This document shows, one piece after another, positions 17,193-56,044 of a stretch of DNA of 64,000 nt. The position numbers and the translations under genes were made by a program. The DNA is from Candidatus Arcticimaribacter sp. Lineage in GTDB: Bacteria > Bacteroidota > Bacteroidia > Flavobacteriales > Flavobacteriaceae. The stretch lies in contig PAOB01000034.1 in assembly GCA_002708445.1 (NCBI GenBank), positions 1 through 64,000 of the forward strand, given 5' to 3'. Within the stretch, counting starts at the first letter, position 1. Every line of letters starts with the position of its first letter. Under the pieces are notes generated by a model that saw only the letters and a list, made by a program, of their open reading frames with translations, had not been told where the DNA came from and ran no database searches.

Positions 17193-17237
17193 CAAAATAA
17201 TATTTAATAAGATGAAAATGAGGTGCAAAAGATGAAG

Positions 17238-17320
17238 TGCGCACGAGAAGACTCGAACTTCCACGGGAAAAATCCCACTAGCCCCTCAAGCTAGCGCGTC
17301 TACCATTCCGCCACGTGCGC
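17238..17320 (-). tRNA. tRNA-Leu (anticodon GAG)
   Basis: 83-nt class II tRNA. Acceptor stem GCGCACG pairs with CGTGCGC, discriminator A, no encoded CCA. Anticodon stem CTAGC/GCTAG encloses loop TTGAGGG, anticodon GAG. A long variable arm (GGGATTTTTCCC) and a TTCGAGT T-loop complete it. First of three tRNA genes in a row. Confidence 0.95.
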
Positions 17321-17325
17321 TAAAG

Positions 17326-17398
17326 TGACCTGGCTGGGGCTCGAACCCAGGACCCTCTCCTTAAAAGGGAGATGCTCTACCAACTGAGCTACCAGGTC
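17326..17398 (-). tRNA. tRNA-Lys (anticodon TTT), copy 1
   Basis: 73 nt. Acceptor GACCTGG/CCAGGTC with discriminator A; D-arm GCTCAGTTGGTAGAGC; anticodon stem TCTCC/GGAGA with loop CTTTTAA, anticodon TTT; T-arm CTGGG-TTCGAGC-CCCAG. No CCA encoded. Near-identical to the copy 12 bp further on. Confidence 0.97.
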
Positions 17399-17410
17399 TT
17401 AAAATAATCG

Positions 17411-17483
17411 TGATCTGGCTGGGGCTCGAACCCAGGACCCTCTCCTTAAAAGGGAGATGCTCTACCAACTGAGCTACCAGATC
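17411..17483 (-). tRNA. tRNA-Lys (anticodon TTT), copy 2
   Basis: 73 nt, identical to copy 1 except for the third acceptor base pair: GATCTGG/CCAGATC replaces GACCTGG/CCAGGTC. Both bases of the pair changed, so the stem is kept. A tandem duplication with compensatory change, expressed first in the Lys-Lys-Leu cluster. Confidence 0.97.
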
Positions 17484-29495: not shown

Positions 29496-29693
29496 TTATT
29501 CTAAACGTAATTGTTGCTTGATACTTTTCACATCGTTTTCATGAACCAAACCGGAATGAGTCAATTTAAGCTTTCGCTTTTTTGACTTCTTCGTTAAGAT
29601 ATGGCTCTTAAACGCATGCTTTCTTTTGATTTTACCAGTTCCTGTAAGCTTGAAACGCTTTTTGGCACTGGATTTAGTTTTCATTTTAGGCAT
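29496..29693 (-). CDS. rpmI: 50S ribosomal protein L35
   Basis: 65 aa, highly basic: [40 protein letters not shown]. Full-length family member lying between infC and rplT as in most bacteria. The 28-bp spacing to infC implies cotranscription. Confidence 0.98.
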
Positions 29694-29721
29694 TCTTGTC
29701 GTATTAAATTAGTACTCTTTT

Positions 29722-30276
29722 CTATTTTTTCTTTGGACTGATAAACATGGTCATCCGTTTTCCTTCTAACTTTGGAAGCTGTTCTACTTTCCCGAGTTCC
29801 TCTAAATCTTGAGCTAAGCGAAGAAGTAGAATTTGTCCTTGTTCTTTAAATACAATAGATCTTCCTTTGAAGAATACAAAAGCCTTGAGCTTTGCTCCAT
29901 CTTTAAGGAATTTTTCGGCATGTTTCTTTTTAAAATCATAATCGTGTTCATCGGTTTGTGGACCAAAACGAATTTCTTTGATGATAACTTTTGTAGCTTT
30001 TGATTTAAGCGCCTTGTCTCTTTTCTTTTGTTCGTACAAGAACTTTTTGTATTCAAGAATTTTACAAACAGGAGGGTTAGCATTAGGAGATATTTCAACC
30101 AAATCCAATTCAAGCTCACGAGCCAATTGAAGTGCTTTACTCAAACTGTAAACACCTACTTCAACATTATCCCCGACGAGGCGAAGTTCTTGTGCAGTGA
30201 TTTTTTGATTGATCTTGTGAGGATCAACTTTGATTACACGTCCTGGGCGATTGCTCCTTTTTCTCCGTATTGCTAT
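29722..30276 (-). CDS. infC: Translation initiation factor IF-3, probable ATA start
   Basis: 184 aa if translation begins at the ATA at 30274-30276 (reads [22 protein letters not shown]). The N-terminal domain carries [24 protein letters not shown], the C-terminal [25 protein letters not shown] and GKRMTMF. Between the last in-frame stop (TAA, in the gap after thrS) and the conserved N-terminal domain there is no ATG, GTG or TTG; the first such codon is a TTG deep inside (about codon 45), which would delete the N-domain. Known infC genes often use AUU-type starts that IF-3 itself discriminates, giving autoregulation. 16 bp after thrS. Confidence 0.93.
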
Positions 30277-44330: not shown

Positions 44331-44815
44331 ATGAAGGATACAATAATAAGAGAAGTTTTAGAAAAAGACAATTCATCACTGGCCAAGGTAATTCGGCTAG
44401 TTCTTCTCGAAATTGGTGTTCCCAAAGTAGGAACAGCTTATGCGGATCCTGAACTTGACTTTATGTATCAAGCTTATTTGAAAGAAAAGTCCGCTTATTT
44501 TGTGTTAGAAGAAAATGGATGCGTTACTGGAGGGGCAGGAATATCGCCCTTACAAGGTGGAAAGAGAAGTGTATGTGAATTACAGAAGATGTATTTTTTA
44601 CCTGAAGCTAGAGGAAAGGCTCTCGGTGAAAAAATGATAGATCATTGTTTGAATTACGCTAAAGAACAAGATTTTGACATGTGTTACATTGAAACACTGC
44701 CTTACATGAAAGCTGCTCAAAAGCTTTACTTAAAAAAAGGATTTGAATACATTGATCATCCTATGGGTTCAACAGGGCACACTTCTTGTAATGTTTGGTT
44801 AATTAAAAAGCTTAA

Positions 44816-52560: not shown

Positions 52561-54213
52561 GTGATCACTGGACTGGTAATAAAAAATTTCGCATTAATAG
52601 ATCATCTGGAGGTAAATTTCTCAGAAGGAATGACTAGTATTACTGGAGAGACTGGAGCTGGAAAGTCAATCTTGTTGGGTGGGCTTGGACTAATTTTAGG
52701 TAAAAGGGCGGATTTATCCACACTTAAAAACCCTGATGAGAAGTGTTTTGTGGAAGCAACCTTTTCTATCAAAGAATATCAACTTGAACAATTGTTTGAA
52801 GAATTGGACTTGGACTATGATTCGATTTCGTTTATTCGAAGAGAGATATTGCCCTCAGGGAAGTCTAGAGCATTCATCAACGACAGTCCAGTAAACTTAG
52901 ATGTACTTCAGCGTTTGGGGCAAGAATTGATTGATGTTCACTCCCAACATCAAACCTTATCGCTCACACAGTCGGACTATCAATTGGAAGTTTTAGATGC
53001 TTTGGCTGAAAATAAAGAGCTTTTAAAAACGTACCAAATCAAGTTGAATACCTACAAAAACTTGCAGAAGCGGTTAGTTGAACTAAATGCTTTACAAGAT
53101 TCTCAGAAACAAGATTTAGATTACACAAGTTTTCTTTTGGAAGAGCTGAACGATGCTGCTCTTGAAGTAGGCATGTTAGCTCCACTAGAAGAAGAAGAGC
53201 AAGAATTGGTTAATGCTGAGGAAATAATCACCAATTTGGTTAAGGCCAATCAAATAATTGAAGAAGAACAGATGGGTGTTGAAGTTCAGGTGAATGAAAT
53301 TCGGTCAGCCTTGCTCAAAGTATCTTCTTTATCAGAGAAACTTTTGCCTTTGTTTGATCGTTTGGAAAGTTTAAAAATAGAACTAACTGACTTGAACCAA
53401 GACATTCAGTTTAAATCGGAGCAAATAGAGGCCAACCCTGAACGCTTAGAGCTTGTTCAAAGTTCTTTAAAAAAAATTTATGATCTTCAATCGAAGCATC
53501 AATGTCAATCCATAGAAGAACTTATTTCCATAAAAGAGAATTTGGAAAAAAAAGTTGATTCAACAGCCACACTCGAACAAGACTTAATTGTATTAGATAA
53601 AGAGATCAATCAGTTGGAACAAGAACTTCATGAATTAACTGAGAGTCTGTCAAATAATAGAAAAAGTACCCTACCTTCTTTTACTGAAGAACTTGAATCT
53701 CTTTTGGAGCACTTGGGAATGCCTAATGCACGTTTCAAGATTAATCTTTCTCCAAGTGATCGCTTTTTGTCTCACGGAAAAGACGAGCTTATTCTTGAGT
53801 TTTCAGCAAATCAAGGATCCAATTTTGGGACGTTAAAGAAAATAGCGTCTGGAGGAGAATTATCACGTATTATGCTTTCAATCAAGGCGATATTGTCTCG
53901 TTTCAAAACATTACCTACCATAATATTTGATGAAATTGACACTGGTGTTTCTGGGGAGATTTCTTACAAAATTGCTGAGGTAATGCATCAAATGAGTCAG
54001 TACATGCAGGTCGTGACTATTTCTCATTTACCTCAAGTTGCTGCTAAGGGATCACATCATTTTAAGGTTTTTAAAGAATTTAAAAATGAAAGTACTTTTA
54101 CCCAGCTAAAAAAATTAAACCCTACCGAACGCATTCAGGAAGTTGCCCAAATGCTTGGAGGTGAAGAAATTTCTGAAACTGCAATTCAACACGCCAAAGA
54201 ATTATTGAATTAA
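52561..54213 (+). CDS. recN: DNA repair ATPase RecN
   Basis: 550 aa, GTG start. SMC-like: Walker A TGETGAGKSILLGGLG at the N-terminus, long coiled coil in the middle (about 155-370), then the ABC signature ASGGELSRIMLSIKA and Walker B TIIFDEIDTGVSGE. Holds broken chromosome ends together during recombination repair. A TTATCCACA sequence inside (52714-52722) is probably fortuitous. Confidence 0.97.
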   Translation: MITGLVIKNFALIDHLEVNFSEGMTSITGETGAGKSILLGGLGLILGKRADLSTLKNPDEKCFVEATFSIKEYQLEQLFEELDLDYDSISFIRREILPSGKSRAFINDSPVNLDVLQRLGQELIDVHSQHQTLSLTQSDYQLEVLDALAENKELLKTYQIKLNTYKNLQKRLVELNALQDSQKQDLDYTSFLLEELNDAALEVGMLAPLEEEEQELVNAEEIITNLVKANQIIEEEQMGVEVQVNEIRSALLKVSSLSEKLLPLFDRLESLKIELTDLNQDIQFKSEQIEANPERLELVQSSLKKIYDLQSKHQCQSIEELISIKENLEKKVDSTATLEQDLIVLDKEINQLEQELHELTESLSNNRKSTLPSFTEELESLLEHLGMPNARFKINLSPSDRFLSHGKDELILEFSANQGSNFGTLKKIASGGELSRIMLSIKAILSRFKTLPTIIFDEIDTGVSGEISYKIAEVMHQMSQYMQVVTISHLPQVAAKGSHHFKVFKEFKNESTFTQLKKLNPTERIQEVAQMLGGEEISETAIQHAKELLN

Positions 54214-54250: not shown

Positions 54251-55066
54251 ATGTCTCATCAACTTCTAGCTGGGAAAAAAGGAATCATTTTTGGAGCACT
54301 AGACAACCAATCAATCGCATGGAAAACTGCCGAAAGTGTTCACGAACAAGGAGGACAAATCGTGTTGACTAATGCCCCCGTTGCGCTTCGAATGGGAACA
54401 ATCAATAACTTAGCAGCGAAAATTGACGCACCAGTAATACCTGCAGATGCAACATCAATCAAAGATCTTGAAGATTTGATCGATCAAGCTGTGACTCATT
54501 TAGGAGGGCCTTTAGATTTTGTATTGCATTCTATTTGAATGTCTGTAAATGTTAGAAAAGGAAAGCAGTACACCGATCTAAACCACGATTGGATGACCAA
54601 AGGATGGGATGTTTCTGCAGTTTCTTTTCATAAATTGCTACAAACATTGTACAAAAAGGATGCTATGAAACCTGGAGGAAGTATTGTTGCTCTAACTTAC
54701 ATTGCAGCTCAAAGAACGTTTCCTAACTACAATGATATGGCAGACAATAAGGCTTATCTTGAATCTATTGCGAGAAGCTTTGGCTATTTTATGGGTAAAG
54801 ACAAACAAGTTCGTGTGAATACCATTTCTCAGTCTCCTACCTTAACCACAGCAGGGCAGGGGGTCGAAGGTTTAGATGGATTTCTAAACTATGCAGAAAA
54901 GATGTCTCCTCTGGGCAATGCATCAGCAAAAGAATGTGCTGATTACACTGTAATGATGTTTTCTGATTTTACTCGAAAAGTTACTATGCAAAATTTATTT
55001 CATGATGGTGGATTTTCAAATACAGGGGTAAGTCAAGATATTATTGATATGCTTCAAAAAGAATAG
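54251..55066 (+). pseudogene. fabI: Enoyl-ACP reductase FabI, interrupted by an in-frame TGA
   Basis: 271-codon reading frame starting ATG 54251 (MSHQLLAGKKGIIFGAL). Codon 96 (54536-54538) is TGA; the frame then goes on unbroken with MSVNVRKGKQYTD...YNDMADNKAYLESIARSFGYF...RVNTISQSP to 55066. The context reads LHSI-stop-MSVNV, where FabI has a conserved Gly (SIG, Gly93 in E. coli, part of the NAD/triclosan site). GGA to TGA is one substitution. All other family motifs are intact, so inactivation is very recent, or a sequencing error, or the TGA is read through. Two separate proteins would split the Rossmann fold and are unlikely to work unless they assemble. Confidence 0.85.
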
Positions 55067-55075
55067 TTTTAAATT

Positions 55076-56044
55076 ATGGAACAGCGATTTCCTTTTCTCC
55101 ATGCACTTCAAGATTTTTCTTTGGAAAGAGGCAGGTCACGTTCTTTTTTAATTTTTCTGTCGCTTTCATTCATATTTTGGTTAACTACTAAGTTTTCTAA
55201 TCAATACACAGAGGTACTTCCTTTAGAGGTAAGCTTTAATGAATATCCAGCTGGGGTAGTACCTACATCAGACACTTCCTCGGAGATTCAATTAACCTTG
55301 ACAGCTTCAGGTTTTCAACTGTTTTTTTATAAAATTTTGGGAACTAAATTAGTTTTAGACTCAAGAAAAGGTGCTTTTGATGATGGAATTGCTACTCTTT
55401 CATTGGAGTTAAGTCAACAAGAAATTCAAGATCAGCTTTTTGGGTCTTTGGTTATCAATTCTATTTTTCCTAATACTGTAAGTTTTGAATACACCCAACT
55501 GAGCAACAAACGTTTAGCTGTTGCTCTTCAAAACAATCTAGATTTATCGGCAGGCTTTGGAATTTCCGAACCTCTTCAATTTATTCCCGATAGCATTAAT
55601 GTCATCGGAGCCTCTATTATCTTGGATGCTTTAAAAGAAGTTTATCTCAACACGGAGCAAAAATCAAAAATTAAAAAATCTTTTACAGATCAATTCAAAC
55701 TCGTAAATCCACTGTCAAATCAGTTGGAGTTTTCAGAATCCACCGTTACTCTCAAAGCTATTGTTGATCGATTTTCAGAAACCTCCCTTAAGGTTCCCAT
55801 TCGATTATTAAATGTTCCTGACTCCATAGCTTTGAAATTGTTTCCTGCAGATGTTGAAGTTGTTTTTTCTGCTAGTCTTTCAAAAATTAAGACTATCGAT
55901 GCCAATGACTTCGTTATTTCTTCCGATTTCAACAATTTAAGAAAAGAAGATTTAAAGATGAATTTGCAATTGATTCAAGCTCCAGATCTTCTCCAAAACA
56001 TTCGATGGAGTCCAAAAGAAGTAGAATACTTAATTCGCAAATAG
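55076..56044 (+). CDS. YbbR-domain protein (CdaR-like)
   Basis: 322 aa. One membrane helix near the N-terminus (residues 25-38, LIFLSLSFIFWLTTKF) and repeats of YbbR type, e.g. LPLEVSFNEYPAGVVP, PDSINVIGASIILDALKEVYLNTE and KVPIRLLNVPDSIALKLFPADVEVVFSA. In Firmicutes YbbR proteins regulate diadenylate cyclase; no cdaA is in the window. The gene precedes coaE, an arrangement common in Bacteroidota, with a 2-bp gap. Confidence 0.85.
   Translation: MEQRFPFLHALQDFSLERGRSRSFLIFLSLSFIFWLTTKFSNQYTEVLPLEVSFNEYPAGVVPTSDTSSEIQLTLTASGFQLFFYKILGTKLVLDSRKGAFDDGIATLSLELSQQEIQDQLFGSLVINSIFPNTVSFEYTQLSNKRLAVALQNNLDLSAGFGISEPLQFIPDSINVIGASIILDALKEVYLNTEQKSKIKKSFTDQFKLVNPLSNQLEFSESTVTLKAIVDRFSETSLKVPIRLLNVPDSIALKLFPADVEVVFSASLSKIKTIDANDFVISSDFNNLRKEDLKMNLQLIQAPDLLQNIRWSPKEVEYLIRK

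Follow-up and report, generated by a model that had tools for sequence, protein, structure and literature searches.

We have found an in-frame TGA in the fabI gene of a Candidatus Arcticimaribacter sp. genome, at the codon that aligns with Gly93 of the Escherichia coli enzyme, and the best reading of this stop, to which we give a probability of about 60%, is a lone consensus error or a minor variant. An isolated one-base error, or a variant of a minor strain, would have become fixed in the draft consensus, while the living population would carry an uninterrupted fabI. This reading, already named as a sequencing error in the preliminary description, was put first because the only convincing enoyl reductase that we found is this very gene, which shows no decay; the interruption is most likely not a working feature. 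The window analyzed here is a stretch of 64,000 nucleotides (positions 1 to 64,000 of contig PAOB01000034.1, assembly GCA_002708445.1). Among named loci, those closest to the window belong to Candidatus Arcticimaribacter, which is the genus NS5_F of the NS5 marine group (PMC9122927). The organism is probably an uncultured marine bacterium and the assembly, with 1,557,090 bases in 55 contigs and 65.5% completeness, is probably a metagenome-assembled genome. About one third of the genome was not recovered and may encode a further reductase.

The fabI frame runs from 54251 to 55066 on the forward strand and its translation has a single internal stop, the TGA at codon 96 (Table 1). With the TGA taken as a residue, the read-through product matched PF13561 with 195.6 bits (gathering score 27), and the two halves correspond to consecutive parts of the profile, 1–79 and 86–236. 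In a MAFFT alignment codon 96 lies opposite Gly93 of E. coli K-12 FabI, and Tyr160 and Lys167 of the read-through product lie opposite E. coli Tyr156 and Lys163, which we take to be the catalytic residues. The closest solved structure was 6vlx, an enoyl-ACP reductase [NADH], with 372.8 bits over residues 1–265. The best NCBIfam model, NF006019, gave 135.9 bits, under its cut-off of 452, and none of the best 25 of the 67 families matching the read-through product reached its NCBIfam cut-off; the frame is filed as FabI because of the solved relative, the catalytic residues and orthology. The gene thus resembles the NADH-dependent FabI, presumably the form found in Bacteroidota, in its whole length, in the catalytic Tyr/Lys, in the selection acting on it and in the match to 6vlx, and differs from it in the TGA, which interrupts the reading frame. 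Judged from sequence, the interrupted frame appears to be the ordinary FabI gene of this organism, and the only one as far as found. The preliminary description had also pointed to triclosan resistance, for which Gly93 of E. coli FabI is a site; the alignment position is the same, but a stop there is no resistance change.

Table 1. Features of the fabI locus, in positions of the window. The names of the two flanking genes are our own assumption.
Feature	Position	Strand	Evidence
Upstream gene, presumably recN-like	52561..54213	+	homologue at the equivalent place on C37
fabI, N-terminal 95 codons	54251..54535	+	PF13561 profile 1–79, 55.5 bits
In-frame TGA, codon aligned with E. coli FabI Gly93	54536..54538	+	translation, MAFFT alignment, tblastn
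fabI, C-terminal 175 codons, with Tyr160/Lys167 and its own stop; begins with an ATG directly after the TGA	54539..55066	+	
Downstream gene, presumably YbbR-like, frame open	55076..56044	+	

The codon was covered by 114 tblastn hits, and only the window's own has TGA. The other 113, a number that includes the copy on contig C37 treated below and in which some genomes enter twice via different loci, all have glycine (GGA 63, GGG 26, GGT 15, GGC 9). The initial claim of a lone in-frame TGA that replaces a conserved fabI glycine between two clean halves is therefore borne out, for the sequence as given, by the translation, by PF13561 and by this comparison. Full-length FabI was found in 55 of the 59 relatives searched, with internal stops in none of the 55; there was no FabI match in the remaining four, G001, G016, G044 and G057. 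Within the genus, 16 of 18 relatives have an intact full-length FabI and in the other two, G001 and G016, the region was not found. A search for recN in G001 returned residues 2–57 only, the contig breaking off inside the gene, and recN was not found in G016 either, so these two are gaps and not clean deletions. Over the whole family, 385 of 397 genomes (our own counted) match FabI at E 1e-60, and four near-complete genomes among the 397 (G167, G171, G197 and G356) gave no match at that value. Among the matches listed, a stop is borne only by the genome of the window (G000) and by G433, where it falls outside the aligned core 1–266. The match in G120 is split in two (best E 1.1e-70), by either a contig break or an interruption.

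Selection on the gene bears directly on the age of the stop. In comparison with G007, the relative with the closest FabI, the gene has a dN of 0.021 and a dS of 0.87, and the resulting dN/dS of 0.024 indicates strong purifying selection. When frames overlapping a better pair were excluded, only 7 of the other 66 orthologue pairs had a lower ratio, and the median of all 67 was 0.058. Since fabI is under such purifying selection, the TGA should be very young or not real. We also counted the bases private to the window after codon 96 in comparison with five relatives (a sixth, G018, was excluded, its slice not starting at its ATG). Only 3 of the 21 private bases, located in codons 106 and 246, yield a residue found in none of the five, and for this reason the downstream half would have been translated for most of the branch; a stop that is neither very young nor unreal would so have to be no bar to translation. 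The change in codon 106, where all five relatives have His, is a second private residue-changing transversion only 32 bases downstream of the TGA, a weak hint at a locally poor consensus.

A second FabI is present in the same assembly, at positions 3–719 of contig C37 (locus L032, G000:C37:1-11685; 11,685 bp). This copy is stop-free, 83% identical to that of the window over 239 residues and truncated by the contig end. The gene order along C37, as far as the names that we presume for its genes go, repeats that of the window locus, and the two are collinear at ~64–75% DNA identity. The first 3,719 bases of C37 are 96% identical in DNA to L060 and are all that this locus held; it comes from the North Sea MAG HE361-02_B23, its FabI is 83% identical to that of the window, and it would represent a species other than that of the window genome. 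The idea of L060 as another genus was dropped, this 83% being just under the 84–96% of same-genus relatives. The collinearity of C37 with the window locus and its 96% identity to L060 make it very probable that this contig is foreign to the genome. Presence of the entire locus in two copies is much less plausible, and a transfer of the segment is less likely too. An ordinary pseudogene rescued by an intact second FabI would agree with a stop-free copy this similar in the same assembly, but given the probable foreign origin of the contig we consider it very unlikely, and the C37 gene was rejected as the predicted rescue copy.

An enoyl reductase should be needed by the organism. FabF (598 bits) and FabG (above the TIGR01830 cut-off) are both present, FabF also above its cut-off, and a fatty-acid cycle that needs this step is therefore present. 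FabV was not found in our assembly; none of 14 control genomes matched it either, though G024 and G034 did. The sole FabK-like protein of the assembly, on contig C13, scored 88 bits, and by score it is similar to FabK-like proteins of 81 to 95 bits present in 10 of the 16 relatives from the genus in which FabI is intact. For the remaining five stretches of the genome matching PF13561, the highest scores were those of FabG, a YdfG-like dehydrogenase or general SDRs. None of 60 genomes reached the 453 bits required for FabK, the FabI-less G044 and G057 included, so that this cut-off says little here; what counts is the ~300 bits in these two against a maximum of 124 in the genus. G044 and G057, near-complete genomes of the same order, have FabK-like proteins of 307 and 298 bits that may be their reductase. 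Proteins of this ~300-bit kind are common in other Flavobacteriales and were not found in the 19 Arcticimaribacter genomes searched. The best score in the genus belongs to G012, the row of which contains one TAA. A convincing second reductase was not found in the recovered part of the genome. The preliminary description had considered a fresh loss covered by another enoyl reductase, and the search of the genome did return a second FabI and an 88-bit FabK-like protein; with the former very probably foreign, the latter so weak and FabV not found, such cover is not supported in this genome, 65% complete.

The stop could also be a genuine and very recent nonsense mutation, so that a strain or sub-population would be without FabI and would depend on fatty acids taken up from outside or on a reductase encoded in the missing third, or would be a dying or minor lineage. 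We rank this second, as possible but rather unlikely. FabI loss does occur, as in the four family genomes without a match and in G044 and G057 with their ~300-bit FabK-like proteins, the sampled assembly is otherwise clean, and a FabK-like protein exists on C13. Proteins like that of C13 are, however, found in relatives that still keep FabI, the gene is intact wherever its region was found within the genus, and apart from the TGA the gene shows no sign of decay.

Lone nonsense errors and fresh nonsense alleles occur in draft genomes, and the case described here resembles them in having one stop, no decay, a single genome affected, an incomplete assembly and a probably foreign contig. The imperfection of the assembly (65% complete and with one very probably foreign contig) was counted for an error, and the apparent cleanliness of the sampled part against it. 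We have compared the 82.8 kb contig with G007 and judged by eye the eight frames that were flagged; a conserved gene with a clear interior stop was seen in fabI alone. The seven others were judged to be antisense frames, over-long starts, tandem paralogues or, once, the region at 29601–29938. In that region of the window a frame of 113 amino acids of G007 is not intact, being represented by two frames with stops, and perhaps there is no gene. A scan against G009 flagged seven frames, fabI included, and the reverse scan into G007 flagged 15 (also read by eye). A sample of 362,767 bases of the genome yielded 58 same-frame pairs, among which fabI ranked second; this ranking, which requires 60 open codons on either side of a stop, was used instead of a stricter nonsense screen that missed fabI itself. 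Inspection by eye covered the best 14 of the 58 pairs, and the 13 other than fabI mostly look like neighbouring genes, with one or two ambiguous (e.g., C8:61047). The assembly looks clean in this sample, which gives no sign of frequent errors in general. By our own estimate, if about 1 in 24 errors makes a stop, one stop per ~363 kb needs about one wrong base per 15 kb. One nonsense codon in ~363 kb is compatible with the error rate usual in drafts and, equally, with a single real mutation.

If the stop is real, FabI might still be made, either by readthrough of the UGA or as two re-associating chains produced by stop and restart at the adjoining ATG, which we consider improbable. The position of the ATG directly after the TGA speaks for it, a restarted chain starting at the natural next residue, and so do the few private residue changes of the downstream half. 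On the other hand, the upstream context of this ATG scored -1.5 against 2.0 at the start of fabI itself, which places it at the 57th percentile among 354 in-frame ATG codons inside genes and at the 17th among 63 gene starts (those of 67 genes, fabI and three others excluded). The context is that of an average internal Met codon, and restart is weakened by it, although a coupled restart may depend little on context. The 65 bases from the TGA onward fold with -9.6 kcal/mol (z -0.86), a value equalled or bettered by 43 of 200 shuffles, so that this stretch contains no unusually stable hairpin. A search for tRNA-Sec in the genome (65% complete) gave five hits, none over the cut-off, and ARAGORN identified them as Ser, Leu and Tyr tRNAs. 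The similarity to known UGA recoding, as in selenoproteins and readthrough, is an in-frame UGA inside a conserved gene; the differences are the lack of a tRNA-Sec over the cut-off and of an unusual hairpin after the UGA, the presence of glycine and not cysteine in the relatives, and the lack of conservation of the UGA, which none of the 113 other hits shares. Synthesis of the enzyme across a real UGA, or its restart at the natural Met that follows, with FabI at a throttled level or in two chains, is a slim prospect, and the efficient TGA readthrough proposed in the preliminary description received no supporting signal from the tRNA-Sec search, the hairpin folding or the ATG context.

Another point that could favour readthrough or restart, and recoding of TGA throughout the genome as well, is that prfB, the gene of RF2, was not found in our assembly, where a match on C42 is prfA. 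The gene was over the cut-off in all 20 relatives searched. The prfB neighbourhood of G007 (4 kb) had no DNA match in our assembly, a weak result since it is an empty DNA search without control. An assembly gap is likelier than a loss, and RF2 loss was set aside given that TGA stops are retained and that prfB is present in 20 of 20 relatives. Among 66 genes checked on the contig, TGA is the stop codon of 10, that at 44331 included, and each of the 10 aligns with its G007 orthologue to within 3 bases of the TGA. A genome-wide reassignment of TGA to glycine, tryptophan or selenocysteine, against which the tRNA-Sec result also counts, is thus extremely improbable. Both statements made at the outset, that TGA serves as a normal stop in neighbouring genes (murQ and DUF3050, also cited then, are outside the set that we named) and that code reassignment is improbable, agree with these 10 genes.

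Were the TGA real and FabI still made, a free-living bacterium would be synthesizing an essential enzyme across a stop codon or in split form. In the case of an error, a draft-genome stop in an essential gene, together with an apparent rescue paralogue, would be explicable by one wrong base and one foreign contig. In the accessible parts of the literature on Arcticimaribacter, on FabI and FabK, on triclosan and Gly93 and on readthrough in Flavobacteria we found no report of such a fabI stop. No relative was confirmed among viral contigs. Elsewhere in the window, at 17237–17483 on the minus strand, two tandem tRNA-Lys(ttt) genes adjoin a tRNA-Leu(gag).
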